A stretch of DNA of 64,000 nucleotides from Marinitenerispora sediminis (GTDB lineage: Bacteria > Actinomycetota > Actinomycetes > Streptosporangiales > Streptosporangiaceae). The stretch is taken from assembly GCF_003336425.1 (NCBI RefSeq), contig NZ_QEIO01000001.1, positions 1-64,000 of the forward strand. The letters run 5' to 3'. Under the pieces are notes generated by a model, which searched no databases, was not told the DNA's origin, and saw only the letters and a list, made by a program, of their open reading frames with translations. The translations under genes were made by a program, and so were the position numbers. Shown here piece by piece: positions 3,242-52,715 of the stretch (position 1 is the first letter of the stretch; each line of letters starts with the position of its first letter).

Positions 3242-3885
3242 GGCTCCCCTCCGACCACGGCGAGGCTGAGCAGTCCGCATCCGTGCGACTTGCCGCGTCC
3301 GATGCCGGCCCGCACCGCCGAGCGCAGGACGTCCGCGTCCGTCACCTCGGCGGTCCCCTGGAAGAGCACCGCGCTGTGGCGGATGCGCCGGCCACGGGAC
3401 CGGTCGACCGCGTCCGCGCGGTCGAGGGAGACGAGGGAGTGCAGCCGCAGCCCGCTGCCCTCCGCGCGCTGCCGCCACCACGCATCCGCCTCCGCGCCGC
3501 GCAGGGCAGTCGTGACCTCGCTCTTGCCCTGCTCCTTGGAGCGCCCGGTGCGGCGGGTCGGACTGGCGACGATGCGGTACCGGACCAGCTGCCCGGCCGC
3601 GAGGTAGCCCAGCAGCGGCGCGAGGTCGCGCGTGTCGACCGTGCCGTATCCCTCCGGAAGGCCGGAGGTGTCGAGCGGGCGGTTCGCCTGCACGAGTACC
3701 GACGTGCCGGCGCGGGTCTGCTCGACCCGGAAGAGCAGGTCCGCGGCCTGGCGCGGATGCGGCCCGAGCCCGGTGGGCGGCAGCAGCCGCATGAGCCGCC
3801 GGTGCAGCGCGCCCATGTCCCCGAGGTCGGCCCGCGCCTCGGCGCAACGGGGGTTCGGGACGATCCTGGTCAGTCCGAGCATCAT
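3238..3885 (-). CDS. cas6e: CRISPR crRNA endoribonuclease Cas6e (CasE)
   Basis: 215 aa, the normal length. Cas6e cuts pre-crRNA at the base of the repeat hairpin and stays bound to the crRNA 3' hairpin in Cascade. The N-terminal ferredoxin fold has a His in GALHRRLMRLL (about residue 28) matching the catalytic His. The C-terminal Gly-rich loop reads GIGRGKSHGCGLLSLA. Start and stop overlap cas5 (ATGA) and cas1 (GTGA), so translation is coupled. One Cas6e must process both arrays, whose repeats differ in the first five bases. Confidence 0.96.
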   Translation of the reverse strand: MMLGLTRIVPNPRCAEARADLGDMGALHRRLMRLLPPTGLGPHPRQAADLLFRVEQTRAGTSVLVQANRPLDTSGLPEGYGTVDTRDLAPLLGYLAAGQLVRYRIVASPTRRTGRSKEQGKSEVTTALRGAEADAWWRQRAEGSGLRLHSLVSLDRADAVDRSRGRRIRHSAVLFQGTAEVTDADVLRSAVRAGIGRGKSHGCGLLSLAVVGGEP

Positions 3886-4658
3886 GACCTTCCCCGCACG
3901 TAGTCGTACAGCGCCGCGAGGTAGCCGCTGTGGTCCCGCCAGCGCTCCAGCGCCGCCGGCAGATCCTCGGGGAGCACGGTGACCGGCCGCGTCGCGTACG
4001 CCCGCCGCGCGCCGCTGAAGGACCGCGGGACGTCGCTGAGGACGGTGCGTTCCCCCCTCCGCCCGGACGGCACGTGGTCGCCCTCGTACACGAATTCCAC
4101 GCTCACCGTCTCGCCCGCACTCCCGTCCCGCTGACCGGGCAGCGGTGGCGGTAGCGGGACCTTCCGCAGCTCCGCGACGGGATCCGCCACCCTTCGGCCC
4201 AGGACGAGCGGCTGGTCCGGTACGCAGGCGCGGCGCCCGAGGTAGGGCTGCCAGTGCGGGGCGAGGAGCGCGGCCGCGATCGGCTCCGCGACCTCCTCGG
4301 GCGCGGTGACGGCGACCGTGAACACCGCGCCCGCGAGGTAGGCGCGGTGGGTGACGATCGTGCCCGCCTCGGCACCCCTCCGCTTGCCCTCCGCGGTGGG
4401 GACGGTGCGGCTGGCCGGCATTCCCCCGCCGACCGTGTGGAAGTCGACCGTCCGGGTTCCGGGCCGGTCGATCCGCACGGTGATCCCCAGGGTGTCGTAG
4501 TGGCTGAGGTCGGCGCCGCGCTCGACGCCCTGCGCCGCCGCGAACATCCCGACCAGTCCGGATCTCGTGGGGAAGATGACGGTGTCCCGCAGCCCGTAGG
4601 CGCTGTGCTCGCCCCAGCTCTGCAGCGGGCCGGCGAGGCGGAGCAGGAATCCGCTCAT
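3882..4658 (-). CDS. cas5e: Cascade subunit Cas5e (CasD)
   Basis: 258 aa. Cas5e caps the 5' handle of the crRNA in Cascade. The N-terminal MSGFLLRLAGPLQSWG and the following FPTRSGLVGMFAAAQG are the typical Cas5 RAMP beginning and Gly-rich segment. The ATG overlaps the cas7 stop by ATGA and the end overlaps cas6e, so it is embedded in the Cascade operon. Confidence 0.96.
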   Translation of the reverse strand: MSGFLLRLAGPLQSWGEHSAYGLRDTVIFPTRSGLVGMFAAAQGVERGADLSHYDTLGITVRIDRPGTRTVDFHTVGGGMPASRTVPTAEGKRRGAEAGTIVTHRAYLAGAVFTVAVTAPEEVAEPIAAALLAPHWQPYLGRRACVPDQPLVLGRRVADPVAELRKVPLPPPLPGQRDGSAGETVSVEFVYEGDHVPSGRRGERTVLSDVPRSFSGARRAYATRPVTVLPEDLPAALERWRDHSGYLAALYDYVRGRS

Positions 4659-5791
4659 TCGGCCGGCCCGAAGGCGGCGCCGAGCGCTCCGGACAGCACG
4701 CTGCCGACGGAGTCGTGCCGGTCGCCGAGGCCGGTGAGCTTAGCCGACTCGCCGTCGATGCCGGCGTGCCCGTCGAACCGGATCTCCTCCCGGCCCCACA
4801 GGGCGTGCAGGTTGGTCGCGTAACCGGACAGCGCCGAGCGCGCCGCCGCCGCGTATCCGCGGTTGCCGGCGACCGGCTGCTCGAAGGCGGGGGCGAAGGA
4901 GACGGGGCGGTCGCCGCGCACCGCCACGTAGACGAGGTCCGGCAGCGTCATCGCGGCGGTCGCGTTCTGCTTGCCGGTGGGCACGGTGCGCAGGAACGCC
5001 GTCAGGAACTCCCCGACGAGCTCCCGGGCGCTGCCGGCGTCGCCGTCGAGGTTGCGGAGCAGCCCGGCGACGTTGACGTTGGCGTACCGGTAGAAGGTGC
5101 CGGCGCTGAACTGCCCGACGTTCATGTGGCCGCTCCCCCGGTCCCCGGCCGCACTGGGGATGTCGTCGACGGCCGTGAAGAAGTCGGTCTCCACCTCGGT
5201 CCCGTGCACGGTGAAGGCGTGCGCGAACTGGACGGCGCCGTCGACGTCGGCCCCGGGCAGTTCGGCGAGCATCCGACCGAACAGGTTGATGGTGCCGCTG
5301 CGCGAGCGCAGGATCTCGCTGACCTCGTCGGAGGGGACCGCCGTGCCGGGCTTCTTCTTGGCGGCCTCCTTCGCGATCTCCTCGCGGTGCCGGGCGGCGA
5401 CCTCGACCAACTGGTCGATCCCCGGCGCGGGGAGGTACAGCAGGACCGAGGTGGCGACGGCCTGCCCGTCCTGCTCCTTCTCCAGCTTGATGCCCTTGCC
5501 CGCCGCGGCGACGACCTGCCGGCCCGCCTCACGGGCGAGGTAGGGGTCCCAGCCCTGCTCTTCGAGCCGTGCCGCGATGCCGGCGGCGAGGCGCCGGGTC
5601 CGCACCGCGCGGTCGCCGAGACGGGTTTCGACCTCGTGGCGGACCGCGCGCTTCCAGCTCTGGCTGGACACCCGGGTCCGCTCGTACCCTCCGTACTCGA
5701 CGGTCTTGGGCAGGCCGATGTCGTCCCGGTTGATGTTGCTGTACGGAAGCGTCTGCAGGGCGTGGATGTCGAGGTAGGCGGCAGTGGTCAT
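4655..5791 (-). CDS. cas7e: Cascade backbone subunit Cas7e (CasC/Cse4)
   Basis: 378 aa from the ATG at 5791 that overlaps the cse2 stop (ATGA). Six copies of this protein form the helical backbone along the crRNA spacer. The start MTTAAYLDIHALQTLPYSNINRDD is characteristic, as are KTVEYGGYERTRVSSQSWKR and the late HMNVGQFSAGTFYRYANVN. The open frame extends upstream through cse2, but the family N-terminus and the coupled overlap fix this start. Confidence 0.96.
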   Translation of the reverse strand: MTTAAYLDIHALQTLPYSNINRDDIGLPKTVEYGGYERTRVSSQSWKRAVRHEVETRLGDRAVRTRRLAAGIAARLEEQGWDPYLAREAGRQVVAAAGKGIKLEKEQDGQAVATSVLLYLPAPGIDQLVEVAARHREEIAKEAAKKKPGTAVPSDEVSEILRSRSGTINLFGRMLAELPGADVDGAVQFAHAFTVHGTEVETDFFTAVDDIPSAAGDRGSGHMNVGQFSAGTFYRYANVNVAGLLRNLDGDAGSARELVGEFLTAFLRTVPTGKQNATAAMTLPDLVYVAVRGDRPVSFAPAFEQPVAGNRGYAAAARSALSGYATNLHALWGREEIRFDGHAGIDGESAKLTGLGDRHDSVGSVLSGALGAAFGPAE

Positions 5792-6477
5792 GAGAGTTGG
5801 TCCTCTGTCTCGATGGTGGTGTCCGCGGCGGCCGGGGACTCGTCGTCGGCCCGGCGCTTGCGCTCCCGTTGGATGTCGTCGCGCGTGCGGTGGTACCGCT
5901 GCACCCATTCCTTGGCGACCTGGTCCCGCTCGGAGCCCCAGCGGGCGAGGTCGCGCAGCAGGTACCCCCAGTCGACGGGGATGAGGTCGGCGCGCAGGTA
6001 GGAGATGAGCTTGGGCAGCTCGCGGTGCAGCCGGTCGACGCGGTAGCGGGCGAGCAGGTGGAGCCGGTCCCGCGCCGCGTCGCCGTTCACGCGGCCCTTC
6101 TCCACCGCCCAGGCCAGGGTCTCCCCGAGGTTGCGCCGCCGGCTCCGGCCGGCGGCCGTACCCGCGCCGCCGGTAGGACCGCCCTCCGCGCCCTCGTGGC
6201 CGTCCGAGGCCGACCCCGCGACGTCCTGGTCGCGCGCCCCGCGCTGCTGGGCGGCGATCAGCGCCGCCACGGTGTAGAAGGCGCGCTCCGTCGCGTGGTC
6301 CGGACGCTCCGGGAGGAACGGCGCGACCACCGCGTGCGCGTGGAAGTTGGCGATGTCCTTCGGGGGGCGGCCGATACCGCGGCGCAACGCCGCCCGGAGG
6401 CCCGGATCGTTCTCGATGACGTGCCGGATGCGGGCCGTCATGCGGTCGCCGACGGCGATCAGTTCCTTTTGGTTCAC
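5788..6477 (-). CDS. cse2: Cascade small subunit Cse2 (CasB)
   Basis: 229 aa from a GTG overlapping the cse1 TGA (GTGA). Cse2 dimers form the belly of Cascade and steady the displaced strand. The helical N-terminal part contains AALRRGIGRPPKDIANFHAH, and a later segment reads WGYLLRDLARWGSERDQVAKEW, both like Cse2. A poorly conserved Ala/Gly-rich insert lies near residues 85-115. The longer frame to 6714 is cse1 shadow. Confidence 0.92.
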   Translation of the reverse strand: MNQKELIAVGDRMTARIRHVIENDPGLRAALRRGIGRPPKDIANFHAHAVVAPFLPERPDHATERAFYTVAALIAAQQRGARDQDVAGSASDGHEGAEGGPTGGAGTAAGRSRRRNLGETLAWAVEKGRVNGDAARDRLHLLARYRVDRLHRELPKLISYLRADLIPVDWGYLLRDLARWGSERDQVAKEWVQRYHRTRDDIQRERKRRADDESPAAADTTIETEDQLS

Positions 6478-8048
6478 GCATTCTCCTCTGGAGGGTTCTC
6501 GGTCACCCAGCCCGCGTAAAGCCCGCGGCGGGCCCGTTCGACCGCCTCGGCCACCCGCGGCCGCCGCGTGTAGGGGCCGGCGACCTCGTCGAAGACCCGC
6601 AGCGCGATACGGATGAAGGCGTTGCCCGGGCCGGTGCGGTCGTCGTCCAGCGCGATCGACCAGAACTTCCGTTCGGCGAGCGGCCAGAACCTCGCCATCC
6701 CCGCACGCCGCCACGGCCCCTCCTCATCCCGCACGCCCGCGCTGTCCCGCCATGCGGCCACCAGGGCGGCGGCCAGTGCCCGGGCCGAGCGTTCGGCGGC
6801 GTCGTGCGCGGTGGTGACCCGCAGCGTCGCCTCGGGTGTTCCGTCCCGCGCCTCGTCGGCGAGCCGGTCGAGGATGGGCGGCGTGCCGGCCGTGAACCAC
6901 TGCCGGTCCCGGGTCTGCCCGTCCTGGTCGAAGCCGTAGGCCCGCACCCGCAGCGCCTTCCGGAGCTCGTGCGGCACGCCCGAGGCGGCCGTGCAGGTGT
7001 CGAAGATCAGCGGACGGCGGGTGGTGCCCTTGGAGCTGCTCTTCAGCAGCAGGGCGTCGATGTCCCGCCAGATCGCGCGGTCGGCGTCGGCCGGTCGCGC
7101 GTACCGCGATCCCGCCTTGCTCGTGTCGTGGATGAGGTACGGGTCCTCGATCTCCGGGCCCGGCCTGCGCCACGCCCAGGTGATCCACGCGTCCTCGACC
7201 TCCCGACCGTCCGGGGAGGGGCTCAGCAGCACCGCGTGGCGGTACCGGTTGACCAGCCGGGCCGCCAGCCCGTCACCGCTCGGCGGCAGCCCGAGCGGAT
7301 CGGGGAGCCGGTCCTCCTCCCAGGGCGCGAGGTCGGCCTGCTCGGCGTCGCCCGGATAGGGGATGTTGAGCAGCAGCGAGTGGAACAGCGTCGGGCCCAG
7401 GGGATGGAAGGAGACGCTGCGGCGGAGTGGACCGGCGGTGGTGTTCGCCTCCGTGACCGTGCCGGCCTCGCCCGTGACGCTCCTGGTCGCGCACCGGCCG
7501 GAGGGCCCGTAGTAGAGCCACATCAGGAGCGCCCACGCGGCCTCCGCCGCGGGGACCGGCGCGGGATCCGCGTCGACGTGGTGCCCGAGCCACACCTGGT
7601 TGTTGCCGGAGGGCCGCCCCCACACGAGCTTGTTGACGCCCGCGCTCTTCGGGCACTCGGCGCGAAGCCGCGGGTCCTGCATCCAGGGGCGCTCGGCCCC
7701 GAACAGGTCGAACCGTCCCGGCAGTCCGGCGAAGTAGGCGTCGATTCCGGGGCCGTCCCGGTGCTTGTCCTCCGGCAGCCGGCCGGCGTCGAGGAAGCCG
7801 GCCCGCCGGAGCAGCCACTCCTCCGGGTCCTCCGCCGTGTCCAGCCCGGTCACCCGGGCGGTGAGCAGCGCGAGCACCCGCCAGAGGCCGGCGGTGGCCG
7901 GCGGGAGCGGCAACTCCACGTCGGAGAGCTCGTGCGCCCGGGCGAGGACGTCCCGGAGGCCGAGCCGGCAGACGTCGGCGCCCGCAGCACTGGGCTGGGC
8001 GAGCAACCAGGGGGCGACGGAGAGGTCGAAAGGGGCTGGAGGTGGCAT
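6474..8048 (-). CDS. cse1: Cascade large subunit Cse1 (CasA)
   Basis: 524 aa, normal for Cse1, which recognises the PAM and recruits Cas3. The N-terminus has FDLSVAPWLLAQ and the GLRDVLARAHELSDVE block of the family; the C-terminal four-helix bundle runs to the stop. The ATG at 8048 lies 84 bp after the cas3 stop, the only sizeable gap in the operon. An internal promoter there is possible but not shown. Confidence 0.95.
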   Translation of the reverse strand: MPPPAPFDLSVAPWLLAQPSAAGADVCRLGLRDVLARAHELSDVELPLPPATAGLWRVLALLTARVTGLDTAEDPEEWLLRRAGFLDAGRLPEDKHRDGPGIDAYFAGLPGRFDLFGAERPWMQDPRLRAECPKSAGVNKLVWGRPSGNNQVWLGHHVDADPAPVPAAEAAWALLMWLYYGPSGRCATRSVTGEAGTVTEANTTAGPLRRSVSFHPLGPTLFHSLLLNIPYPGDAEQADLAPWEEDRLPDPLGLPPSGDGLAARLVNRYRHAVLLSPSPDGREVEDAWITWAWRRPGPEIEDPYLIHDTSKAGSRYARPADADRAIWRDIDALLLKSSSKGTTRRPLIFDTCTAASGVPHELRKALRVRAYGFDQDGQTRDRQWFTAGTPPILDRLADEARDGTPEATLRVTTAHDAAERSARALAAALVAAWRDSAGVRDEEGPWRRAGMARFWPLAERKFWSIALDDDRTGPGNAFIRIALRVFDEVAGPYTRRPRVAEAVERARRGLYAGWVTENPPEENA

Positions 8049-8132
8049 GAGGACTCCGGTTGGCCAGATGTCGGGGGAAGAGGGGTAGGGGACGCGGCGC
8101 GGGGAGGCAGTGCGATGGGTGCGGGCAGCTCG

Positions 8133-10991
8133 TCAGCGGGCTGCCCGCGAGCCGTCCCGCTCCACCACCAGCCCCCGTTCGTCGTCGAGGAGCGCACTGC
8201 GGCCCGCGTTCTCGGCGGGCCGCACCGTGCCGTCCCGCGACAGTCCGTGCACGAGCAGGCGGACGTCGCGCAGGTGGACGTTCGCGCTCCACGCCTCGGG
8301 GACCGCGGCACGCTCGTCGCCCTCGTCCAGCCAGCTCGCCGGAACGGGGATCGTGCGGGCCAGGAGGGGCCGCAGGTCCGCGGGGGTGAACGCCCCGCGA
8401 GCGCCGCTGCCCCGCGCGGGCAGTCCGCGGTCGCGCCGCCGGTCCAGCCAGCGCCGTCCCTGGTCGTCCTCGTAGCAGCAGATGACGCGCAGCGACTCCG
8501 CGCCGAACCGGGTCGCCACCTTTGCCTCGCCGAGGTCGTCGCGGTCGGTGAGCCGGTACAGGTCCCGCCGCACCTCCGCCGGCGGCGGGACCGCGGCGTT
8601 CGCTCCGAGCTGGCGGTGCGCGATCTCCTCCGCGAGTCGGTCCACGTCGCTGTCGGGGTTGCCGAGGTTCAGGTCGGCGTGCTCGTACATGCCGTCCACG
8701 AGCTCCTGCACGTCCTCGGGGACGCGGACCGGCCGTCCCGCCCACTTGCGCAGCAGGTTGTGCGTGCGCAGCAGGAGCGACGGGTGGTAGACGAACCGCC
8801 ACGGTCGCGGGAGCGATCGCGTGTCGTCCGGCTCGGTGGGGGCGATGACGACCATGCGCGGTTCCCGCGCCCATCCCGGCCGTTTGATGACGTTCAGGTG
8901 CTCGTGCCGCCAGCACCGCCCGGCCCGCTGGAGCAGGAGGTGCATCGGCGCGAGGTCCGTGATGAGCAGGTCGAGGTCGAGGTCGAGGCTCTGCTCGATG
9001 ATCTGCGTCGCGACGAGGATCGCCGACTGCGGCCGCGCGCCCTCGCGTGCCCCCTGCTTGCCGAATCTGCGCACGATGTCGGATGTGATCCGCTCCCGCT
9101 GTTCGGCGGGGAACCGCGAGTGCAGCAGGTGAAGTTCCGGGCGCACGCCGGCGCCCTCGCCTCCGAAGCGGTCGGCCAGCCGTCCGGCGATCTCGTCGTA
9201 GGTGCGCTGGGCCTCGGCGACGGTCGTGCAGATCACGGCCGCGCAGCCGCCCTCGTCGAGGAGGCCGGTGAGCTCGTCGCCGATCGCGTCGGCCCGTCCC
9301 GTGCTCTCGGGGCCGGTCAGGTCGACCTCGCGCAGCGACACGGCCAGGGGCTCGCGCGGCGTGGTGGGCAGCGGTTCCGGGTTGGCGGTCACCTGGTGGG
9401 TCCGCCCGTCGGCGTAGAGCCAACCGGGGTAGGCGATCGCCGGCGGGGGCGTGCGCTCTCCCCTGCGCCGTCCGGCGCCCTTCAGATAGGCGTCGACGAG
9501 CGTGGCGGCGATCCTGTGGTGCAGGGTCGCCGACAGCAGCACGACCGGCACCTGCAACCTGCCGAGCCAGGTGAGCAGCCGGGTGAGCAGGGCCTGCATG
9601 TAGGAGTCCGCGGCGTGCACCTCGTCGATGACGACCGTCTTGCCGCTGAGCCCGAGCATGCGGACCACGTTGTGGCGTCCCCGCAGCGCCGCCATCAGCG
9701 CCTGGTCGATGGTCCCGATGGCGTAGTCGGCGAACAGCCCCCGCTTGCGCCCCTGGAGCCACTCCGTCACCTCGATGAGACGCCGCCGTTCCGGCGACTC
9801 CGCGTCGGCGGCGACGGCGGCCCCCTCTCCGGAGTGGTCGCCGCTCGCCGGCTCGGAGGTTTCCGGGAGGTAGTCGGTGTTCAACCACGCCATGCCGTGC
9901 AGCAGCGTCATGCTCGCCGCAGCGTCGACGCGCCCGTCCAGGTAGGCGCGCACCCGGCCGTACATCTGGTCCGCGGTGGCCATGGTGGGCAGCGCCAGGT
10001 ACAGCCCGTTGCGGCCGGACGCCCGGCCCATGACCTCGGCGCCGTACAGCCCGGCCTCGGTCTTGCCCTCCCCCATCGGCGCCGCCACCACCAGCAGGCC
10101 GGGCCCGTCGCAGAGCTCGGGGAGCCACCGTTCGAGGGAGCGCTGCAGCCCGTTGGGCTCCGAGATCTCGGGGAACGCCGCCGTGAAGTTCCCGCTCCGG
10201 GCCGGCGGACGGGAGAGCCCCGCCTCGACCAGCAGGTCGGGGACGTTGCGGCGCGCCGCCGCGAGATGCCGCCGCAGATCCACCGGCCCGTCGGAGAGAA
10301 CGGCCAGCTGCTTCCGCACGAAGTGCAACTGGCTCACCAGCCAGTCGGCCTGGATGACGATCCCGCAGACCAGCGCGGCCGCCGCCCCGTCGATCCGCGT
10401 CGGCGCAGCCGGCCGTCCCATCAGTTCGCTCACCGCGTCCAAGTGGGCACGACGCTGCGCCTCCCACGCGTCGTCGGCGTATCCCAGCGCCCGCAGCGGG
10501 GAGGCCGAGTGACTCTCCTCCTGATGGTGGAACCGCCCGTGGTGCCCGCCGAGCAGTTGCGCCACCATGGTGGCAGCGGCGGGCATGCCTTCCGCCGGAT
10601 ATCCGATTCCCGGAAGTGCGTATTGCAGCCACTGGGCCGCCACGTGATCATGACCGCCGTGAACCGCGGAAACCGGGTATTCACCCGGGAGGGCGGACGG
10701 GTCCATTGCCTGGAACTCGTAAGTGATCTTGCCGATATCATGGAGCGCGGCCCAATGGGCCACCAGGAGACCGGCGTCATCGACATCCACTCCGAGCGCG
10801 TCGACAATGGTCAACCGGGCACCGGCGGCTATGTGGTCACGCCACAGCGCTTCGGCGGCAGCTCCGGCATCGAGAAGATGACAGATAACCGGATAGGTGA
10901 CGCCTTCACCCAATCCATCCGATTTCCCCCACAGGCGAAGATCAACATAACCCTCGCGATCTTCACGCGAGGGAACAGAATCCTCCGACAA
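8133..10991 (-). CDS. cas3: CRISPR nuclease-helicase Cas3, type I-E
   Basis: 952 aa from a TTG at 10991, preceded by GAGGGG at suitable distance. Cas3 unwinds and shreds target DNA after Cascade binding. The N-terminal HD nuclease shows His 38, HDIGK at 84-88 and GGHHGRFH at about 148-155. The SF2 helicase has Walker A in APMGEGKTEAG (about 304-314), DEVH at 456-459, motif III LLSATL at about 485-490 and the late QRAGRCWRH motif. It is first in the operon; array 2's leader lies upstream on the other strand, so 10992-11180 probably holds both promoters. Confidence 0.96.
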   Translation of the reverse strand: MSEDSVPSREDREGYVDLRLWGKSDGLGEGVTYPVICHLLDAGAAAEALWRDHIAAGARLTIVDALGVDVDDAGLLVAHWAALHDIGKITYEFQAMDPSALPGEYPVSAVHGGHDHVAAQWLQYALPGIGYPAEGMPAAATMVAQLLGGHHGRFHHQEESHSASPLRALGYADDAWEAQRRAHLDAVSELMGRPAAPTRIDGAAAALVCGIVIQADWLVSQLHFVRKQLAVLSDGPVDLRRHLAAARRNVPDLLVEAGLSRPPARSGNFTAAFPEISEPNGLQRSLERWLPELCDGPGLLVVAAPMGEGKTEAGLYGAEVMGRASGRNGLYLALPTMATADQMYGRVRAYLDGRVDAAASMTLLHGMAWLNTDYLPETSEPASGDHSGEGAAVAADAESPERRRLIEVTEWLQGRKRGLFADYAIGTIDQALMAALRGRHNVVRMLGLSGKTVVIDEVHAADSYMQALLTRLLTWLGRLQVPVVLLSATLHHRIAATLVDAYLKGAGRRRGERTPPPAIAYPGWLYADGRTHQVTANPEPLPTTPREPLAVSLREVDLTGPESTGRADAIGDELTGLLDEGGCAAVICTTVAEAQRTYDEIAGRLADRFGGEGAGVRPELHLLHSRFPAEQRERITSDIVRRFGKQGAREGARPQSAILVATQIIEQSLDLDLDLLITDLAPMHLLLQRAGRCWRHEHLNVIKRPGWAREPRMVVIAPTEPDDTRSLPRPWRFVYHPSLLLRTHNLLRKWAGRPVRVPEDVQELVDGMYEHADLNLGNPDSDVDRLAEEIAHRQLGANAAVPPPAEVRRDLYRLTDRDDLGEAKVATRFGAESLRVICCYEDDQGRRWLDRRRDRGLPARGSGARGAFTPADLRPLLARTIPVPASWLDEGDERAAVPEAWSANVHLRDVRLLVHGLSRDGTVRPAENAGRSALLDDERGLVVERDGSRAAR

Positions 10992-33285: not shown

Positions 33286-35082
33286 GTGCACAGCACTCCA
33301 GACGAGTTCGCCGCCGCCGGCCTCGCTCCCCGCACTGACCGGGACCCCACCCACATCGGTAGCTACCGTGTCGTGGGGCGATTGGGTTCGGGCGGGATGG
33401 GGGCCGTCTATGCGGCCGTCGACAACAGCGGCGCGCCGCTGGCGCTGAAGGTGGTGCACCGCGAGTACGCCACCGACCCCGAGTTCCGCGCGCGCTTCGC
33501 CCGCGAGGTGGACCTGCTGCGCCGGGTGACCGGCACCTGTGTGCCGGCGTTCCTCGACGCCGACACCGAGGACGCTCGCCCGTGGCTGGGGATCGAGTAC
33601 GTGCCGGGTCTGACGCTGAACAAGCACATCCAACAGAACGGTCCGCTGACCGGCGACATGCTGCTGGGGCTGGCCGCGGGGATCGCCGAGGCGCTGCAGG
33701 TGGTGCACTCCGCCGGGATCGTGCACCGCGACCTCAAGCCGGGCAACGTCATCCTCGCTCCGACGGGGCCCAAGGTGCTGGACTTCGGGATCGCCCGCGC
33801 GGTCGAGGAGTCCGCGATCACCCGCACCGGCGGCCTCCTCGGTACCCCCGGGTGGCTCGCCCCGGAGCAATACCGGGGTGCCGCCCCCGCCCCGCAGTCG
33901 GACATGTTCGCGTGGGGCGGACTGGTGGCCTACGCGGCCACGGGCCGGCGCCCCTTCGGCTCGGGCACCCCGGACGAGCTCGCGTTCCGCACCATGGAGC
34001 ACGGACCCGACCTTGCGGGAGTCCCGGAGCACCTGCTTCCACTGGTCGCCGCGGCACTGGCGAAGGACCCGGACCGGCGCCCAACCGCCGCCCAGGCACT
34101 GGACGCGGTCACCGCGATGTGGGCGGGACGCCCACAGGTCACCAACGAGGAGGCGACCGGCGTACTCCCCAGCCTGCTCAACGAACGCTGGACCGAGGTT
34201 GGCGCCGCCGGGGACAGCACCACCCTGTGGAGCAGCCTCGCCCCGCCCAAACGCTCCCGGTGGCGCAACCGCAAGGTGCTGGTACCGGTGGCGTCGGCGC
34301 TCGCACTGGTGCTGATCGGGAGCATGGGCGCCCTCTCCTGGCAGCGCACCGCGAGCGCTCCAGATAACGGGAACGGGGAGCAGCAGCAGGGTGGCGACAA
34401 CGGTGGGGAGCAGGCTGGCGACGGCGGCTCCGGCGGCGACGAGCTCACCGAGGTGGAGCAGGGCGGCGCCAACCTGCGCGCCAGCGACTCCCAGGACGAC
34501 TTCACCGTCGGCGCGGTGCAGGTGCGCAACATCTCCCCGGACACCATCGAGGTCGCCACCCGGCAGGCACACAGCGACGGCAATTCGACTGTCGGGGCGG
34601 CGGAACCGCAGCTCCACATCAGCTTCTCCTCCGCCGTACGCGAGGGCGGCAACGTCGTCTTCACCGGCAGCGCCGAGTACTTCCGCGACACGGGCAGCTA
34701 CACGCTGCACACACAGGACTTCCAGGTGATGGAATTCCGGCTGCAGCAGGAGGACATGGAGAACCTCTACAACCGGGACTGGGACAAGTTCTACCGGTCC
34801 ACCGACTCTGAAGTCCTGACCACGCTCGACGCCGGCCAGCCCACCGCCGAGTTCACCCTCACCATCCACGATGTCCCACCGGAGAACGATAACCCGGCCG
34901 CCAACCCGGTCACGGCGTACGAGATGCGCTATCTCCGCTACGAGCCTCCCGAGGAGCTATGGGGGCACACCCTCACGGAGCAGGAACGCGGGGCGTTCGG
35001 GGTGTGCTACCAGGAGGGCTCCGAGTGGCATGACCAGCAGCCGCTCGGGGGCGTCGAGGGCGGCGGGATGCCGTGCGGGTGA
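33286..35082 (+). CDS. Membrane Ser/Thr protein kinase 1 (PknB-like)
   Basis: 598 aa from a GTG with an AGGAAG site. Kinase domain: Gly loop GRLGSGGMGAVYAA (31-44), Lys 55, HRDLKPGN (147-154), DFG (166-168) and the activation loop GTPGWLAPEQY. One membrane helix lies at about 331-352, then a low-complexity Gly/Asn/Gln linker and an external beta-rich domain of about 220 residues, without PASTA repeats. The outer domain probably senses an unknown signal. It is paired with a homologous kinase 117 bp downstream. Confidence 0.93.
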   Translation: MHSTPDEFAAAGLAPRTDRDPTHIGSYRVVGRLGSGGMGAVYAAVDNSGAPLALKVVHREYATDPEFRARFAREVDLLRRVTGTCVPAFLDADTEDARPWLGIEYVPGLTLNKHIQQNGPLTGDMLLGLAAGIAEALQVVHSAGIVHRDLKPGNVILAPTGPKVLDFGIARAVEESAITRTGGLLGTPGWLAPEQYRGAAPAPQSDMFAWGGLVAYAATGRRPFGSGTPDELAFRTMEHGPDLAGVPEHLLPLVAAALAKDPDRRPTAAQALDAVTAMWAGRPQVTNEEATGVLPSLLNERWTEVGAAGDSTTLWSSLAPPKRSRWRNRKVLVPVASALALVLIGSMGALSWQRTASAPDNGNGEQQQGGDNGGEQAGDGGSGGDELTEVEQGGANLRASDSQDDFTVGAVQVRNISPDTIEVATRQAHSDGNSTVGAAEPQLHISFSSAVREGGNVVFTGSAEYFRDTGSYTLHTQDFQVMEFRLQQEDMENLYNRDWDKFYRSTDSEVLTTLDAGQPTAEFTLTIHDVPPENDNPAANPVTAYEMRYLRYEPPEELWGHTLTEQERGAFGVCYQEGSEWHDQQPLGGVEGGGMPCG

Positions 35083-35198
35083 CCCGGCCCTGGGGCAGTC
35101 CGGGGTTACCGGGTAGACGCGGCTGAATCGGACCGCGACGCCGTGCGTCGAACCACACGAACAACCTCGCACCGCCCCCCTGACACGGAACCAGGTCG

Positions 35199-36860
35199 AT
35201 GACTGACGGAACCCCCACGCACTTCGCCCCCCTACTGGACGACGACCCCGGACACATCGGCCCCTACACGGTGGTGGGCCGGATTGGTGCCGGCGGGATG
35301 GGCAGCGTGTTCGCCGCCCAGGACCACCAGCGCGACCAGTACGTCGCGGTGAAGGTGGTACGCGACGAGCTCGCCGCGGATCCCGAGTTCCGGGCCCGGT
35401 TCGCCCGCGAGGTCGACCTGGTGCAGCGGGTGCACAGCCCCTGCGTACCAGCGTTCCGCGGCGCCGACACTGAGAGCGCCACTGCCTGGCTGGCCACCGA
35501 GTACGTCCCCGGGCCCACGCTGCGCGAGTACGTCCGCGCGAACGGCGCGCTGAGCGGCGGGAAGCTCCTGGCGCTGGCCGCCGGCCTCGTGGAGGCGCTG
35601 CATGCCATCCACGGCCGGGGCATCGTGCACCGGGACCTCAAGCCGGGCAACGTCATCCTGGGACCGTCGGGCCCCAAGGTGTTGGACTTCGGGATCGCCC
35701 GCGCGGTCGGGGAGACCGCGCTCACGCGCACCGGCGGAGTCGTTGGCACGGCCGGCTGGATGAGCCCGGAGCAGTATGGCAGCGGCCAGGTCACCGAGCA
35801 GTCCGACATCTTCTCCTGGGGAGCGCTGGTGGCCTTCGCCGCCACCGGCCGAGAGCCGTTCGGTTCCGGCGCGCCGAACGCGCTGGCCTACCGGGTGATG
35901 CGGTCCGACCCCGACCTGGAGGGAACGCCAGGCGAACTCCGACCGCTGCTGGAGGCGGCGCTGGCGAAGGACCCGGCCGCCCGGCCAACGGCGGGGCAGA
36001 CGCTCCAGGCCGTCGAACAGTTGTGGAGAAGCACCCGCGCCCTGGGCGCCGCTCCCAGCCAGGATCCGGCGAGCGCGGTCACCACGCTACTCAAGGCGGA
36101 ATGGACCGGGATGGAGGCGGCGCCGCCGAAGCCGCCCCGGAAGCAGCGCCGCCGCCCCCTGCTGGTCGCCGGCGCGGTCGTAGGTGCCCTGGCGCTCCTC
36201 GGCGGCGGGGCCGTCGCTGCCCCCGTACTGGTGGACACGCTGTCCGAACAGGGGTCCGAACAGGAGGGGGGAAACGACGGCGGAGCCAACGGCGGCGGGG
36301 CGGACAACGGGAACGACGGTGACCAGGCGGGTGAGGACAGCGACGGTGGGGGCGGCCAGAGCGCAGGCGGGGAGGACGGCCCGCCCGAGGCCGCCGTCGA
36401 CCAGGTCTCCGGCGGAAGCAACAACGACGGCGCGACAGCCCAGGTCGGCGCGGCGCAGGGGAACGTCGGACTGTTCACCTCGCTCTTGGGCGGCGGCCTC
36501 GCCGCAACGCAGGTCTTTGTCCATAGCCCGGAACCCACCGACGACGGGATCCAGTTCACCGTCAACGGGCAGTCCCAGGGAGTCCGGGCGGAGGCGCCCG
36601 GGTTCACCCAGGACGCGCTCTACGTGGTCGCCGACGGCGAGGAGCTGACCCCGGACTCGCAGTTCGGCTACACCCCCGCACCGGAGGAGCCACAGGGGCA
36701 GGAGACCAACGAGTTCACGCTCTCGATCCCTGGAGCCCCGGAAAGCGGCCTGTTGGCCTTCCAGGGCCGAACCACTGACGGCGAGGAGCTCCCCCCGGTT
36801 GGAATCTGCTACGACGCCGCCATCGGCATCTTCACCATCGAGTACGCGGAGTGCACCTGA
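35199..36860 (+). CDS. Membrane Ser/Thr protein kinase 2 (paralogue of kinase 1)
   Basis: 553 aa. Same layout as its neighbour: GRIGAGGMGSVFAA (28-41), Lys 52, HRDLKPGN (144-151), DFG (163-165), GTAGWMSPEQY, membrane helix at about 321-345, a Gly/Asn/Asp-rich linker and an external domain. The kinase domains are clearly tandem-duplicate relatives while the outer domains have diverged, suggesting different inputs. Integrase scraps flank the pair, so it may be cargo. Confidence 0.93.
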   Translation: MTDGTPTHFAPLLDDDPGHIGPYTVVGRIGAGGMGSVFAAQDHQRDQYVAVKVVRDELAADPEFRARFAREVDLVQRVHSPCVPAFRGADTESATAWLATEYVPGPTLREYVRANGALSGGKLLALAAGLVEALHAIHGRGIVHRDLKPGNVILGPSGPKVLDFGIARAVGETALTRTGGVVGTAGWMSPEQYGSGQVTEQSDIFSWGALVAFAATGREPFGSGAPNALAYRVMRSDPDLEGTPGELRPLLEAALAKDPAARPTAGQTLQAVEQLWRSTRALGAAPSQDPASAVTTLLKAEWTGMEAAPPKPPRKQRRRPLLVAGAVVGALALLGGGAVAAPVLVDTLSEQGSEQEGGNDGGANGGGADNGNDGDQAGEDSDGGGGQSAGGEDGPPEAAVDQVSGGSNNDGATAQVGAAQGNVGLFTSLLGGGLAATQVFVHSPEPTDDGIQFTVNGQSQGVRAEAPGFTQDALYVVADGEELTPDSQFGYTPAPEEPQGQETNEFTLSIPGAPESGLLAFQGRTTDGEELPPVGICYDAAIGIFTIEYAECT

Positions 36861-36920
36861 GCGACAGCGTGCCGAGCGAAAGGCCCACTACACGCAGGGC
36901 AGCTCAGAACTGCCTCCGAC

Positions 36921-36994
36921 CGGACTCCACGGGCTGCGCCACGGTGCGGCGTCGCTGAGTCTGGCCGCCGGGGTGGACGTCAAGGTCGTATCGG
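36921..36994 (+). pseudogene. Integrase remnant B (HxxR box)
   Basis: 74 bp nearly identical (two differences seen) to 48619-48692. It encodes TGLHGLRHGAASLSLAAGVD and VKVVS, the tyrosine-recombinase box with His-x-x-Arg, and breaks off right after GTATCGG. It lies in the 300-bp gap between kinase 2 and the hsdR remnant; nothing else is seen in that gap. Confidence 0.8.
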
Positions 36995-37162
36995 GTTCTC
37001 GGCTTGTCTCGGACGTCTTCCCAGGTTGGTGATCCTGCTTCACATCCGACACGAGTCAGCACCAGCACAGACCCGATCCCTTACGCGGCCGGCGTTTCAG
37101 GCACCGCAATTGCATAGGCTGGATCACTCATACATGCGGACAGGGATGGGAGCCCAGACGAC

Positions 37163-38770
37163 GTGGACGACCGGCTGCGCGACTTCGCGAAAGGTTCACC
37201 GAACTTCGGGGCCCTCTTCCAGGTCCATCCCCTGCTGTCCCTGTACGGCGCCTCCGCCGAAGCCACCGTCTTCACGAACCCCAACTCGTCGTTGGTGCAG
37301 TCCGGACAGTTCGGCGAGGTACTCGCCGAAGAGCTGATCTCGCATCTGGGCATGCGGATCGACGGCGACAGGCAGGTCGACCGGCTTCGCGCACTCACCA
37401 AGGCCGGGGTCCTCGCCAAGGACATCCGCGACGGCTTCGACCAGCTGCGCCGTGACCGAAACCAGGCAGCACACCGGCACCTGTTCGACACCAGCCGGGC
37501 CCTGGCCGCGGTTCGCGTCTGCTATCGGCTTGGACTGTGGTTCAGCGACACTCTGCATGGGCGGCGGACCGTGGCCGAGTTCGTCCCCCCGACCGACCCT
37601 GGCGAGTCCGCACTAGTGACGGACCCCGCCGAGCTGGCGGAGCTACGCGAGGCCCTCGACCACCACCGCAACGCGCTCACCCAGGCCCGGACCCGGCTCG
37701 CCGCGTCCCACGACGCGCTCGATGCCGAGCGCCGCGCACGCGCTGAGGCCGAGAACCTCATCGCCAGCGCGGACGCCCACAAGGCCAATCTTCTCGAACA
37801 GATCGAGCAGCTCAGCGCACAGATCGAGGAGCTCCGCGCTCACCAGCACGCCGCCTATGAATCGGCCCGCAAGAACCCGAAGAAGGTCGACGCCCAGCAC
37901 CGTGACGGGTTCATCCACCGCGCACAGCGTCCGGCACCGCTCAACGAGGTACAGACGCGCGGGGTCATCGACGCGATGCTACGCAAGGCCGGCTGGATCA
38001 TCCAGGACCGCGATGAGCTGAACCCGCAAGCGGGGCAGGGGGTGGCCGTCCGTGAGTTCTCCCTCGCCAACGGCCGCGCCGACTATGTGCTCTACGTCAA
38101 CGGCGCGATCGTCGGGGTGGTGGAGGCCAAGCGGGAGGGTGACCCGCTGTCCGCCGCGGTGGAGCAGAACGACCGGTATGCGGCCGGCGTGCTCCGCGAA
38201 CACCTCCTCGCAGTCTGGCGCGCTGACGAGCCGTTCGCCTTCCGCTACGCCACAACCGGGACCGAGACGTACTTCGTCAACCGATTGGACCCCACCCCCC
38301 GCTCCCGAGAGGTGTTCTTCTTCCACCGCCCGGAGACGGTCGCGACGTGGATGCGGCGCGCGGACGAGAAACCGAGCTCCCCGACGCTGCGGGCCGGCTT
38401 CCGCCGCCTGCCCAAGCTTGAACAGAACGGCCTGCGTCTCGCACAGTTCGACGCGATCGCCCAGCTGGAGCACTCGCTCAGCGAGGACAGGCCGAGGGCG
38501 CTGATCCAAATGGCGACTGGCGCGGGAAAGACCTACATGGCTGTGGCGCAGACCTACCGGCTGCTCAAGCACGCCAAGGCACGCCGGGTTCTCTTCCTCG
38601 TCGACCGCAACAACCTGGGCCGCCAGGCGCGGGACGAGTTCCGCACGTTCACCACCCCTGACGACGGCCGCACGTTCTCCGACATCTACAACGTGGACCG
38701 GCTCGGCGCGGCGGGTCTCCAGGACACCTCGTCGGTGGTCATCTGCACAATCCAGACGCCTGCTCGATGA
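37163..38770 (+). pseudogene. hsdR: Type I restriction subunit HsdR, truncated by deletion
   Basis: 535 aa. The N-terminal part (about 1-120) is DUF4145/HEPN-like, followed by a coiled coil (about 150-235). The endonuclease domain has ADYVLYVNGAIVGVVEAKREG (PD-ExK), and the helicase begins with MATGAGKTYMAVAQTYRL and VLFLVDRNNLGRQA. It stops abruptly after VVICTIQ, before the rest of the motor. At about 38757 the DNA switches to the 3' part of hsdM in another frame. Without the motor it cannot restrict. Confidence 0.88.
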
Positions 38771-39266
38771 GTTCGACCTGCACACGATCCTGCGCCTACC
38801 GACCGGCATCTTCTACGCGGGCGGTGTCAAGGCGAACGTGCTCTTCTTCGAGAAGAAGCCGCCCAGGGCGAAGGGCAGTCACAACACCTCCAAGCTGTGG
38901 GTCTACGACCTCCGCACTGGTAAACACTTCACTCTCAAGCAGCGTCCGCTGCGCCGCTCCGACCTGGACGACTTCGTCAAGGTCTACAAACCCGATGAGC
39001 CTCGTACCGCCCGTGAGGTGACCGAGCGGTTCAAGTGTTTCGACTATGACGAGCTCATCGCCCGTGACAAAGTCAACCTCGACATCACATGGATGAAGGA
39101 CCCGGCGCTCGATGACGCTGACAGCTTGCTCCCGCCTGAAGTGATCGCACAGGAGATCGTGGCGGACCTGCAGGCCGCACTCGGTGAGTTCACTGCGATC
39201 GCCGAGGCCCTCGGAGGCGAGACCGCTGCGGACGCGGATGACCTCCCACCGACTGAAACGATCTGA
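38758..39266 (+). pseudogene. hsdM: C-terminal part of type I methylase HsdM
   Basis: Beginning at the deletion junction: LLDEFDLHTILRLPTGIFYA, then GGVKANVLFFEKKPP, KLWVYDLRTGKHFTLKQRPL and DLDDFVKVYKPDEPR, to the stop at 39266. These match the end of HsdM after its NPPF catalytic motif, which is missing. There is no start of its own; the frame is out of register with hsdR. Confidence 0.88.
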
Positions 39267-39341
39267 ATCACAATTAATTTGACCTCGCCCGCCCTTCCCG
39301 AGAGTCTGTCTTGAGATCGTTCGGGGAGGGCGGAGGTGTTC

Positions 39342-39989
39342 ATGGCGATTCCGTATCCGCGTACGCGGGAGTTCCAGTCGTTCAGAACCAACATCGACTA
39401 TGCGCGGAAGATGGTGAGGGCAGGCAAGAGCCTCGAGGGGCTTCAGCCTAGCGGGGTCGACATTGGGGACTTCTACCGCGCCGCGTGGGTGCAGGCCGTC
39501 AGTGCCATCGACCACTGGTTTCACGAGGAACTCTATCGTCGAGTCGCTGAGCTCGCTGCCCAGGACGACCTCGATATGCCGTACCAGCTCACCAGGTTCG
39601 AGCTTCCACTGGCCAAGGTCGAGGAGGTCCGCCGCGGAATCACTCCCCTCGCCGAGGCTGTGGCCGAGCATGTGAGGAAAAAGTGGATGAACGCATCGCT
39701 TCAAAACCCTCGCAAGATCAGCGAGGCGCTGAAGCTGGTGACAGAGGTGAACGTCTGGGCAACCGCCGCTCAGAATATCAACGACTGGCATCGCGGACGC
39801 ACCTCGATGACAGAAAAGTCGCTGAAGGATGTGTACACGTCCATAACTGAGCGCCGCAACCAGATTGCCCACGAGGCCGATCTTCTGGAGGATCTCAAGC
39901 AGCGTCGCGCGATTACCGAGGCAGATGTCGCTGACGCCATCGACTGGATCGAGCGCATCGCGCTGGCTATCGCCAAGTGCCTGGACTGA
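39342..39989 (+). CDS. HEPN-domain protein beside the restriction remnant
   Basis: 215 aa from the ATG at 39342 with GGAGG five bases upstream; a GTG six bases earlier overlaps that site. All-helical. ITERRNQIAHEADLL (about 169-183) contains R-x4-H, the RNase motif of HEPN domains, and the N-terminal helix has AAWVQAVSAIDHWFHEELY, as in RiboL-PSP-HEPN-type proteins. Such genes often accompany restriction systems as RNA-cutting backup. It survives intact though hsdR/hsdM are ruined. Confidence 0.7.
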   Translation: MAIPYPRTREFQSFRTNIDYARKMVRAGKSLEGLQPSGVDIGDFYRAAWVQAVSAIDHWFHEELYRRVAELAAQDDLDMPYQLTRFELPLAKVEEVRRGITPLAEAVAEHVRKKWMNASLQNPRKISEALKLVTEVNVWATAAQNINDWHRGRTSMTEKSLKDVYTSITERRNQIAHEADLLEDLKQRRAITEADVADAIDWIERIALAIAKCLD

Positions 39990-40502
39990 CACAACCGTGC
40001 AATCGTCCAGGCGCCAGGTCTGAAGATCCCCCTGGTAGTCGCCAGACGCATCACGTCCTGGCCCGGCAGACCAGGGCGTTGGCCGGTCTCCAGCGCCCGA
40101 GGTGCGCGCGGGTCGCGGTGCAGCAGAAGGCAGGCGCGGGCGTCATTGAGGCCGCGTCGCCGGCCGCGTAGCTACTGTTTCGTACGTCGCTCGAAGTCCA
40201 GACCTGGACCGGTTCTACCGCGGATGAGGAGGACCAGTAGGGGCGGAGGTTCGCCACTGATTACGGTCCAAGGCAGTATCCACTCTAAAGCGGACCCCAG
40301 ATGGGCAGTCAGACGGATGACCACAAAGACAACCTGATGGAGCCCCAGACGGGTGCCGTAATCAGTCCCGGTTTCGACTGATTTATCATCGGGCGGCAGA
40401 TCTCCGCTAGAACAAGCAGATCTGAGTCTTCGTCCGGACATATCCGAGGTCTGCGCTGGGACGGCTGCCGTACAGCGCTAGCGTTTCACTGACCACCCAC
40501 GG
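39990..40502. other. Gap, no gene seen, lower G+C
   Basis: 513 bp between the HEPN gene and the Nudix stop. No frame has coding character, and no tRNA or riboswitch is recognised. The lower G+C fits scrambled mobile DNA. Confidence 0.5.
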
Positions 40503-41039
40503 TCATATTCTGGCTCCATTGTGGGTGTGGACCGTGGTTCCCACCTTCTTCGCCTCAAGTGCCGACGATGTACGACGCCACACATAGTCCCGGAGCCGCC
40601 GCCGAGCTTCCGCGTAGTCGCAGAACTCGGCACTGATGAGTTCACCGTCCACAAAGCGCAGAGAACTCGCCTCTTCCGAAGTCAAGGGGCCGCCCTCGAA
40701 GACGAAGGTGAGAAGGTCGTCCCATGGTCCGTGCGGCGCGGACCAGTCGATGCACAGCAGGCGACCGATCGGAACGGTCAGGCCGAGTTCTTCAGCGAGC
40801 TCACGCTGTGCCGCGCGGATCGGAGGCTCGTTGGCTTCGACCATCCCCCCGGGTATGTCCCAGTCGGGTTTGTAGGACGGGTCCACCAGAAGGATCCGGC
40901 CCGAGGCATCATGGATCAGGACTTCGACGGAAACCCTCTTACGTGCCTGACGCCGGTTCCCCTCCGCTAGGTACCGGTGCCACGCTTGTGGGTCGCGCTC
41001 GTACAGCGGCTCGTCGGAGTCCTGTCCAGCGCTCGGCAT
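40503..41039 (-). CDS. Nudix hydrolase
   Basis: 178 aa. The Nudix box is complete: GMVEANE at 65-71, then REL at 79-81 and EELG at 83-86 (GX5EX7REUXEEXGU). WDIPGGMVEANEPP is the usual lead-in. It hydrolyses a nucleoside-diphosphate-linked substrate that cannot be predicted. It lies 18 bp after the XRE-TPR gene in one operon, an arrangement common in actinomycetes. Confidence 0.9.
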   Translation of the reverse strand: MPSAGQDSDEPLYERDPQAWHRYLAEGNRRQARKRVSVEVLIHDASGRILLVDPSYKPDWDIPGGMVEANEPPIRAAQRELAEELGLTVPIGRLLCIDWSAPHGPWDDLLTFVFEGGPLTSEEASSLRFVDGELISAEFCDYAEARRRLRDYVWRRTSSALEAKKVGTTVHTHNGARI

Positions 41040-48485: not shown

Positions 48486-48618
48486 ACAAACCGTCCCATT
48501 GGCATGTGGGGCAACGCCGCCCGGAACGGACGGCGTCCCGCGCCGCCTCTCATCAAGTCCTAGCCTGGACACCACGTTGGGCAACCCGGGTGTAGGCGTC
48601 GAGCCGCTGCGGTGGGAT

Positions 48619-48875
48619 CGGACTCCACGGGCTGCGTCACGGTGCGGCGTCGCTGAGTCTGGCTGCCGGGGTGGACGTCAAGGTCGTATCGGTCGAACTC
48701 GGGCATTCGTCCACGAGCTTCACCCGGGACACCTATCAGAGCGTGCACCCGCAGGTCGCCAAGGCAGCCGCCGAAGCCACCGCCGCCCTGGTCCCGCTAC
48801 CGCCCGCCCGGCGCCCACGGCGCCCGGTGCTCGACTCACCCGCGACTTAAGAGCACATACGGAGCACACACCGGC
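48619..48875 (+). pseudogene. Integrase remnant C, last 75-80 residues
   Basis: TGLHGLRHGAASLSLAAGVD, VKVVSVELGHSSTSFTRD and TYQSVHPQVAKAAAEATAAL, ending DSPAT and stop at 48849. HxxR, the later His and the catalytic Tyr are all present, so this is the 3' end of a tyrosine recombinase cut off upstream. It sits about 75 bp from the 3' end of tRNA-Lys, the usual place for such an integrase next to its attachment site. The rest of 48486-48949 has only the tRNA terminator. Confidence 0.88.
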
Positions 48876-48949: not shown

Positions 48950-49025
<76 letters not shown>

Positions 49026-52300: not shown

Positions 52301-52642
52301 GGCCTGGTCCCTCCGGTCCGGCCCGCGTCTGGAAGCGGGCGCGTCCACAGTCCTACCGGCCGCCGCGGCGCACGGCGATTACCTCGCAGGTAGCCGGACG
52401 AGCGCCCGGCCGCCGCCGACCGGTCTCCGCGGCTGGGGCGAGGGCGGCCTGGCGGGGACGTGCGTGGTGGCCGGCACCGCCGAGCGGGGCGGCCTGCCGA
52501 CGCCGGCGGGAGCATGGTGGGCGGTGCGCACTCCGGCAACCGCGGGGGCAGCACCGCACCCCTCGTCGACCTCAGACAGCACGAAACCCCAGGTCCCCGC
52601 CCACATATGGGGCGAACCTGGGGTTACACGCGTCGATCAGGG
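52301..52642. other. Gap with tRNA terminator, no gene
   Basis: No coding frame supported. On the minus strand a stem of AACCCCAGGT and ACCTGGGGTT (52584-52625) follows tRNA-Lys copy 2 and is its likely terminator. Confidence 0.6.

Positions 52643-52715
<73 letters not shown>

Follow-up and report, generated by a model that had tools for sequence, protein, structure and literature searches.

How does a restriction gene come to break off in the middle of its motor and run directly into the tail of a methylase gene, and what remains of the operon to which both belonged? We addressed this question in a stretch of 64,000 nucleotides from Marinitenerispora sediminis, hereafter the window. Its sequence, set against that of relatives, indicates that a type I restriction-modification operon also present in Streptomyces, with the gene order hsdR-hsdS-hsdM-HEPN, very probably underwent a single deletion of about 4.5 kb whose ends carry no repeats. 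This high confidence covers the part that can be seen in the window: hsdR cut after residue 531, hsdS gone, hsdM reduced to its last 169 residues, the two frames different, and the HEPN gene whole. A preliminary description of the locus had reported the join of hsdR to hsdM, and the HEPN gene, which the deletion spared, was absent from its account. The features of the locus, in window coordinates, are as follows.

37163 to 38756, plus strand: hsdR remnant, residues 1-531 of about 1188; the open reading frame continues to a stop at 38770
37457 to 37474, plus strand: HEPN-type Rx4H motif RNQAAH, HsdR residues 99-104, within the DUF4145 stretch
38024 to 38296, plus strand: HSDR_N nuclease domain, residues 288-378 (Pfam)
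38756 to 38757, no strand: probable deletion join, between the last hsdR-like base (38756) and the first hsdM-like base (38757)
38757 to 39266, plus strand: hsdM remnant lacking the catalytic core, residues 351-519 plus the stop, in a frame other than that of hsdR
39279 to 39344, plus strand: hairpin element between the hsdM remnant and the HEPN start; the coordinates are those of the model match and include the ATG
39342 to 39989, plus strand: HEPN-family gene, 215 aa, intact, from the ATG at 39342 to the end of the stop at 39989
39852 to 39872, plus strand: RRNQIAH motif of the HEPN gene

Remnants of hsdR and hsdM

The hsdR remnant begins with a GTG at 37163, and frame 1 reads from there to ...SSVVICTIQ. 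The final codon in common with relatives is 38753-38755 (residue 531), followed by four foreign residues (TPAR) and a stop at 38768-38770. All 531 codons are free of stops and frameshifts, and the fragment matches six named Streptomyces loci (L002-L007) with 79-80% identity; elsewhere, in the other genomes among the 60 searched, the best match had 52% identity. The remnant consists of an HEPN-like DUF4145 stretch, a coiled coil (recognized by eye), the HSDR_N nuclease domain and the Walker A half of the motor, with Pfam matches of 3.5e-13 for HSDR_N and 8.4e-20 for ResIII. The match to DUF4145 covers residues 35-107 (3.1e-4) and scores 21.2 bits, below the cut-off of 23.1. With this stretch and its RNQAAH motif, HsdR itself carries the second HEPN-like stretch of the operon.

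The hsdM remnant reads LLDEFDLHTILRLPTG... from 38760 to a stop at 39264-39266, likewise without an internal stop or frameshift (residues are numbered as in L004). This tail is 77-80% identical to its counterparts in L003-L007, and its Pfam match to N6_Mtase (5.3e-11) covers profile positions 201-298 of 311 only. No hsdS was found between hsdR and hsdM, its place in relatives. A genome-wide scan for HsdS (PF01420, Methylase_S) also returned nothing, which is weak evidence, as the same scan missed the HsdS of contig C24.

A functional type I restriction-modification system has an HsdR with nuclease and complete motor, an HsdM with catalytic core and an HsdS; the window retains less than half of the first, the terminal 169 residues of the second and none of the third. 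A type I locus that lacks its specificity subunit, the core of its methylase and the second half of its motor is capable of neither modification nor restriction of DNA. Because these parts are gone, the locus carries out no restriction or modification and is a dead type I restriction-modification locus. The preliminary description had spoken of restriction-system loss, and this is accurate for the hsdR-hsdS-hsdM-HEPN system but does not extend to restriction in general, as contig C24 carries a second, unrelated type I set with full-length hsdM-hsdS-hsdR genes (G000:C24, locus L097 4229-10103, minus strand).

The join and the missing sequence

The earlier observation, that at about 38757 the text passes from VVICTIQ of HsdR into HsdM in another frame, could be confirmed to the coordinate and the frame from the window sequence and its relatives. 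In a base-by-base comparison, 38756 is the last base that fits hsdR (six loci) and 38757 the first that fits hsdM (five loci). There are no inserted bases at the join and no N in the window.

Comparison with complete loci, which the preliminary description had proposed along with a look for short repeats, shows what is missing. Five Streptomyces loci (L003-L007) have the gene order hsdR-hsdS-hsdM-HEPN and carry 4,440-4,542 bp between the two join points; L002 stops inside hsdS, at its contig end. Counted in L004, the missing piece amounts to 657 hsdR codons, the whole of hsdS and 350 hsdM codons, and includes the second half of the hsdR motor and the catalytic core of hsdM. The loss of hsdS, the remaining motor and the methylase core had been noted before, and the relatives do carry these parts between the join points. 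The HsdS proteins of the relatives are 30-32% identical to that of L004; wide divergence is expected of specificity subunits. Homologues on either side of the join are collinear with L003-L007, pointing to derivation from an hsdR-hsdS-hsdM-HEPN operon. Together, the collinear ends, the gene order and the absence elsewhere of the lost portions of HsdR and HsdM support one deletion as the cause of the join, as had been suggested. Short repeats were not found: no base was common to both sides of the join against six relatives on the hsdR side and five on the hsdM side, and therefore no repeat-mediated event is indicated, with the proviso that the relatives are about 20% diverged and up to about four shared bases in the real parent would still be possible. 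No exact match to the join sequence occurred in viral contigs.

The same picture could be an artefact in which the assembly wrongly connected two contig ends from an intact operon. The genome is a draft of 441 contigs, and the 60 genomes searched include no second one of the genus, both of which leave room for such an error. However, the 4.5 kb that should then lie elsewhere was not found in the draft genome: a full-length HsdR query matched the fragment only, and a full-length HsdM query, for which no N-terminal part turned up, matched the remnant and one 32% identical protein on contig C24 that belongs to another system. The absence of the missing HsdR and HsdM parts from the assembly speaks for a real deletion. 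The genome is also rated 99.32% complete and 0.7% contaminated, and the join has no repeat, where wrong assembly joins mostly arise. We consider misassembly unlikely and allow it only a very slight chance.

Decay of the same system in relatives

Among 392 Streptomyces genomes, at least 38 loci matched the hsdR fragment over at least 470 residues at more than 380 bits, counts that are lower bounds as three candidates were scored per genome. The open frame had at least 1,189 residues in 36 of the 38 loci and was truncated in the other two, at residue 471 in G512 (L148) and at residue 534 or a few later in G299 (L149); neither hsdS nor hsdM was found within the 13.6 kb fetched around each. The break in G299 lies 3 to 8 codons from that in the window (the upper figure by eye), and we regard this nearness as a coincidence, several truncations having been compared. 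Further copies of hsdR were split or fragmentary (G615, in which hsdS and hsdM are present, and G313, G394, G648 and G317).

Other loci kept a different part of the operon. Around the HEPN gene of G139 (L066), which belongs to the window's own family, neither hsdR nor hsdS was found in 18.6 kb fetched, and in G334 (L188) a short hsdR piece lies upstream of an open HEPN gene. The HEPN gene is open without an adjoining hsd system in G334 and G422 (17 kb fetched each), whereas G150 (L090) has hsdR, hsdS and hsdM and an HEPN gene in two pieces. The HEPN gene of G555 has a stop. HEPN without restriction-modification in G334 and G422, and restriction-modification with a broken HEPN in G150, indicate that each part can be lost alone.

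The decayed loci L148, L149, L066 and L188 resemble the window in having a shortened hsdR or hsdM and no hsdS found in the fetched stretch, and in L148, L066 and L188 the HEPN gene is still there. Their breakpoints are separate in each case. In contrast to the intact HEPN gene of the window, that of L148 is frameshifted; in L066 a single open frame holds hsdM sequence and an HEPN without its first 28 residues; and in L188 only 47 residues of hsdR remain. Loss of restriction operons by deletion is common and expected, and the truncated and fragmentary relatives suggest that decay of this particular system is common too, with the window as one more case.

In L188 (7821-12890), the hsdR piece is followed by ATPase-like and HNH-like genes and then by the open HEPN gene with a strong hairpin. 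The ATPase-like and HNH-like genes resemble a Septu PtuA/PtuB pair.

Sequence change in the remnants

For HEPN, the hsdM tail and hsdR residues 1-531, omega between the window and L003-L007 was 0.16-0.18, 0.12-0.14 and 0.19-0.20, respectively, with dS near saturation in these pairs. Among the Streptomyces pairs listed, the values were lower for each of the three (0.01-0.08, 0.04-0.08 and 0.04-0.12, in the same order). Private residues in hsdR numbered 48-58 in the window against 16-22 in the relative (2.3 to 3.5 times as many) across 24 comparisons, formed by eight relatives and three outgroups and all sharing one window branch. Silent counts in hsdR differed little when L131 or L132 served as outgroup (no comparison reached p below 0.05); with L130 as outgroup the window had the higher counts, with p below 0.05 in four of eight comparisons. 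HEPN had no excess of private residues (11-18 in the window versus 13-22; silent changes 15-28 versus 7-15). For the hsdM tail, the counts were 6-9 versus 7-13 with L131 and L132, and 14-20 versus 5-9 with L130. The same deletion cut hsdM, which shows no raised change with L131 and L132; the excess in hsdR can therefore not safely be assigned to the time after the deletion, and it may be older. The remnants being free of stops and frameshifts, the deletion may also be too young to inform on selection since.

These counts bear on whether the truncated HsdR could be a maintained stand-alone protein, that is, a new defence gene with an HEPN-like domain, a coiled coil and a nuclease that arose from the deletion. 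The reading frame is open over its whole length, the HEPN-like motif, the nuclease-domain sequence and the Walker A sequence are all present, and the separate truncation in G299 ends at nearly the same point; yet that is one coincidence among several truncations and thus weak, and protein change on the window branch exceeds that of intact relatives by the factor given above while silent change is about equal with L131 and L132. Moreover, the motor breaks off past motif I, and the system retains no methylase that could shield host DNA from a free nuclease. We find a maintained HsdR very improbable, and we favor the reading of the locus as the remains of a dead operon.

The HEPN gene as a member of the operon

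In seven loci (L003-L007, L128 and L129), the HEPN gene comes fourth in the operon, less than 100 bp past hsdM, and the window protein is 70-71% identical to those of L003-L007. Across the 392 Streptomyces genomes, HEPN co-occurred with the hsdR clade, being present in 19 of 24 genomes with hsdR versus 3 of 368 without it (G334, G555 and G422), at thresholds of at least 59% identity for hsdR and at least 55% for HEPN; two HEPN fragments (G437 and G475) and weaker matches are excluded. The corresponding Fisher p of 6e-25 is only a guide, given the relatedness of the genomes and the inclusion of three seeds from the initial search among the 24. Within the 19 genomes, HEPN was found less than 100 bp past hsdM in five, at 0.5 kb in G279, and 2.3-8.8 kb past hsdM on the same strand in 11; the remaining two are G460, with HEPN and hsdM on different contigs, and the truncated G512. 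A transposase-like gene (by eye) lies between hsdM and HEPN in G633 (L146).

Motif, profile and predicted structure agree on the kind of protein encoded. Residues R171, R172 and H177 of RRNQIAH, which follow the Rx4-6H pattern of the HEPN superfamily, show no variation in any of the 23 aligned relatives. A match to HEPN_RiboL-PSP (PF18735) at E 0.01 or better was obtained for 22 of these 23; the window protein shares with this family the Rx4H motif and a helical model but scores 26.0 bits, below the curated cut-off of 28.4, which places it outside the family by score. Its AlphaFold model is all-helical (pLDDT 92.3, pTM 0.87). The best VIA-align match to the model was an HEPN protein (Z 10.1, 126 of 131 aligned, rmsd 3.6), and the first 17 rows, at Z 7.7-10.1, comprised ten titled HEPN, one of unknown function (3mfn, Z 8.9) and six other HEPN proteins, followed in row 18 by the ROQ domain of Roquin (Z 7.4); for helical models, values of Z below about 13 may reflect a common arrangement, and these are to be read with that caution. 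Foldseek gave no match to the model at E 0.001 or better, and a sequence search of the PDB gave nothing up to E 1. With motif, profile and rank order in agreement, the model points to an HEPN fold, and the fourth gene is probably an HEPN-superfamily member and a probable RNA-cutting gene. It is not of the PrrC type of anticodon nuclease, in which an N-terminal ABC ATPase is fused to HEPN, for its 215 residues contain the HEPN match alone.

HEPN matches were also present in 38 of 250 genomes of the window's own family (its own genome included), the best with 40% identity. In the stretches examined around most of them, many of these relatives are part of longer open frames, and at most of the loci fetched, no hsdR, hsdS or hsdM of this family stands beside them. 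In L064 (9001-9633), the HEPN domain sits in a longer open frame and is apparently joined to a helicase-like stretch (by eye). Plasmids contributed one record, with a 27% identical HEPN relative.

A hairpin before the HEPN start

Between the hsdM remnant and the HEPN gene is an inverted repeat that can form a stem of 14 pairs, two of them G-T, with outer pairs that extend it over the GGAGG preceding the ATG. The predicted energy of the window hairpin is -36.4 kcal/mol compared with -22.7 (sd 3.0) for shuffled sequences (z -4.60), and none of 200 shuffles was as good. The stem is present in all eight hsdM-adjacent sequences, including the window (z 4.5-6.1, 60 shuffles each); at other HEPN loci, it reached a z of at least 2.9 in 7 of 17 and fell below in 10. 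A score of 28, attained by all eight, was reached by 0 of 17 starts of hsdR, hsdS and hsdM, 32 of 1050 random stretches and 3 of 37 other gene starts in the window.

The pairs also co-vary. In an alignment made without structure, with seven distinct rows, double-sided changes occurred in 6 of 16 pairs versus 1.8 in shuffles and 0-1 in slid structures, and 84.8% of cells can pair versus 45-52% in slid structures. The window's own row contributes six of the seven cells with double changes, and the pattern therefore reflects few events. A covariance model run on 50 sources recovers its eight training sites; at E 0.02-2.5 it also matches directly beside the HEPN start in six loci outside its training set (L169, L148/L177, L144/L164, L168, L130/L175 and L172). 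Also within this range of E are the training sites in reverse complement and a single site elsewhere (L144 5672-5720), and matches at E 4 to 10 include none at HEPN starts. Sequence may contribute as much as pairing to matches this weak. No Rfam family was found in 36000-41000. Scans for sigma-70 promoters and terminators over 36800-40200 gave one site each, both on the minus strand (0.2 and 1.5 expected from shuffles).

Our preferred reading is that the hairpin acts as a lock on the translation of HEPN from read-through mRNA. The inverted repeat could instead serve HEPN as a DNA operator or form part of its promoter. Immediately upstream of the 5' arm, the window, L128 and L129 have a TTGACC-like block and L004-L007 have TTGCCC or TTGCTC, and transcription starting between the arms would give a short mRNA without the 5' arm. 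On the other hand, the double changes in six pairs suit base pairing, and the sigma-70 scan, which covers one promoter type only, found no promoter there on the plus strand. We judge an operator or promoter somewhat unlikely, although it keeps an appreciable share of our confidence, and continue with the translational lock.

Possible control of a surviving RNase gene

HEPN genes linked to restriction-modification operons, and DUF4145 fused to type I restriction subunits, have been described (PMC3710099, PMC3506569). In the PrrC-PrrI system of E. coli, an RNase is silenced by a type I restriction-modification complex, and a proposal modelled on this system holds that restriction-modification subunits keep the associated RNases inactive (PMC3710099, PMC3506569). 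The present operon resembles the described type I systems with DUF4145/HEPN on HsdR in the N-terminal DUF4145 stretch, HSDR_N nuclease and SF2 motor of its HsdR and, in relatives, in S and M subunits from the same operon (PMC3506569, PMC3710099); the window copy differs in being dead, with no hsdS or methylase core and half a motor. With PrrC-PrrI it shares an HEPN-superfamily gene within a type I operon, but the protein encoded in the window is a small HEPN that lacks the ABC ATPase domain of PrrC and has lost its restriction-modification partner. Among the matches listed in the literature searched, titles and opening abstract lines gave no description of the hsdR-hsdS-hsdM-HEPN operon or its hairpin, which does not prove that none exists.

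We tentatively suggest, at rather less than even confidence, that the HEPN gene still encodes a metal-independent RNase, that its expression would be kept low in cis by the hairpin over the ribosome-binding site, and that this restraint would let the cell lose the restriction complex without harm from the RNase. A broader and more doubtful possibility, to which we would give about one chance in four, is that the HEPN genes of this operon are silenced not only by the restriction proteins and that the hairpin at their own ribosome-binding site lets the RNase gene outlive the system as a stand-alone defence gene or toxin. If so, natural survivors, namely the window and perhaps also G334 and G422, would argue against a strict model of the immunity protein as antitoxin. 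We set aside the idea of an unmasked lethal toxin, since HEPN is open in G334 and G422 without an adjoining restriction-modification system.

The locus offers a clean separation, in which the DNA-acting parts are gone or crippled and the putative RNA-acting gene is whole. With the probable RNase gene kept and its proposed inhibitor lost, it is a natural test of HEPN control in which the published idea of restraint becomes directly testable, and the hairpin before the gene would be a possible second means of control.

Surroundings of the locus

Two 77-base copies, 96% identical, flank the stretch with the dead operon (36918-36994 and 48616-48692) and look by eye like the C terminus of a tyrosine recombinase (LRHG..). 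The second copy ends 258 bases before a tRNA-Lys gene. G+C at 36.5-43.5 kb is 0.60-0.69, poorer than most of the surroundings. The stretch between the copies is possibly a decayed integrated element. Two tRNA-Lys (CTT) genes (48950-49025 and 52641-52715) lie on the same strand 3.7 kb apart and are identical over a covering 77-base repeat. Just upstream of the dead operon is a tandem gene pair (33286-36860), 74% identical over 300 bases, of which the second is a protein kinase (Pfam) and the first kinase-like by eye. Farther upstream, open reading frames on the minus strand (3238-10991) resemble, by eye, type I-E Cas proteins (Cas6e, Cas5, Cse1-like and Cas3-like).
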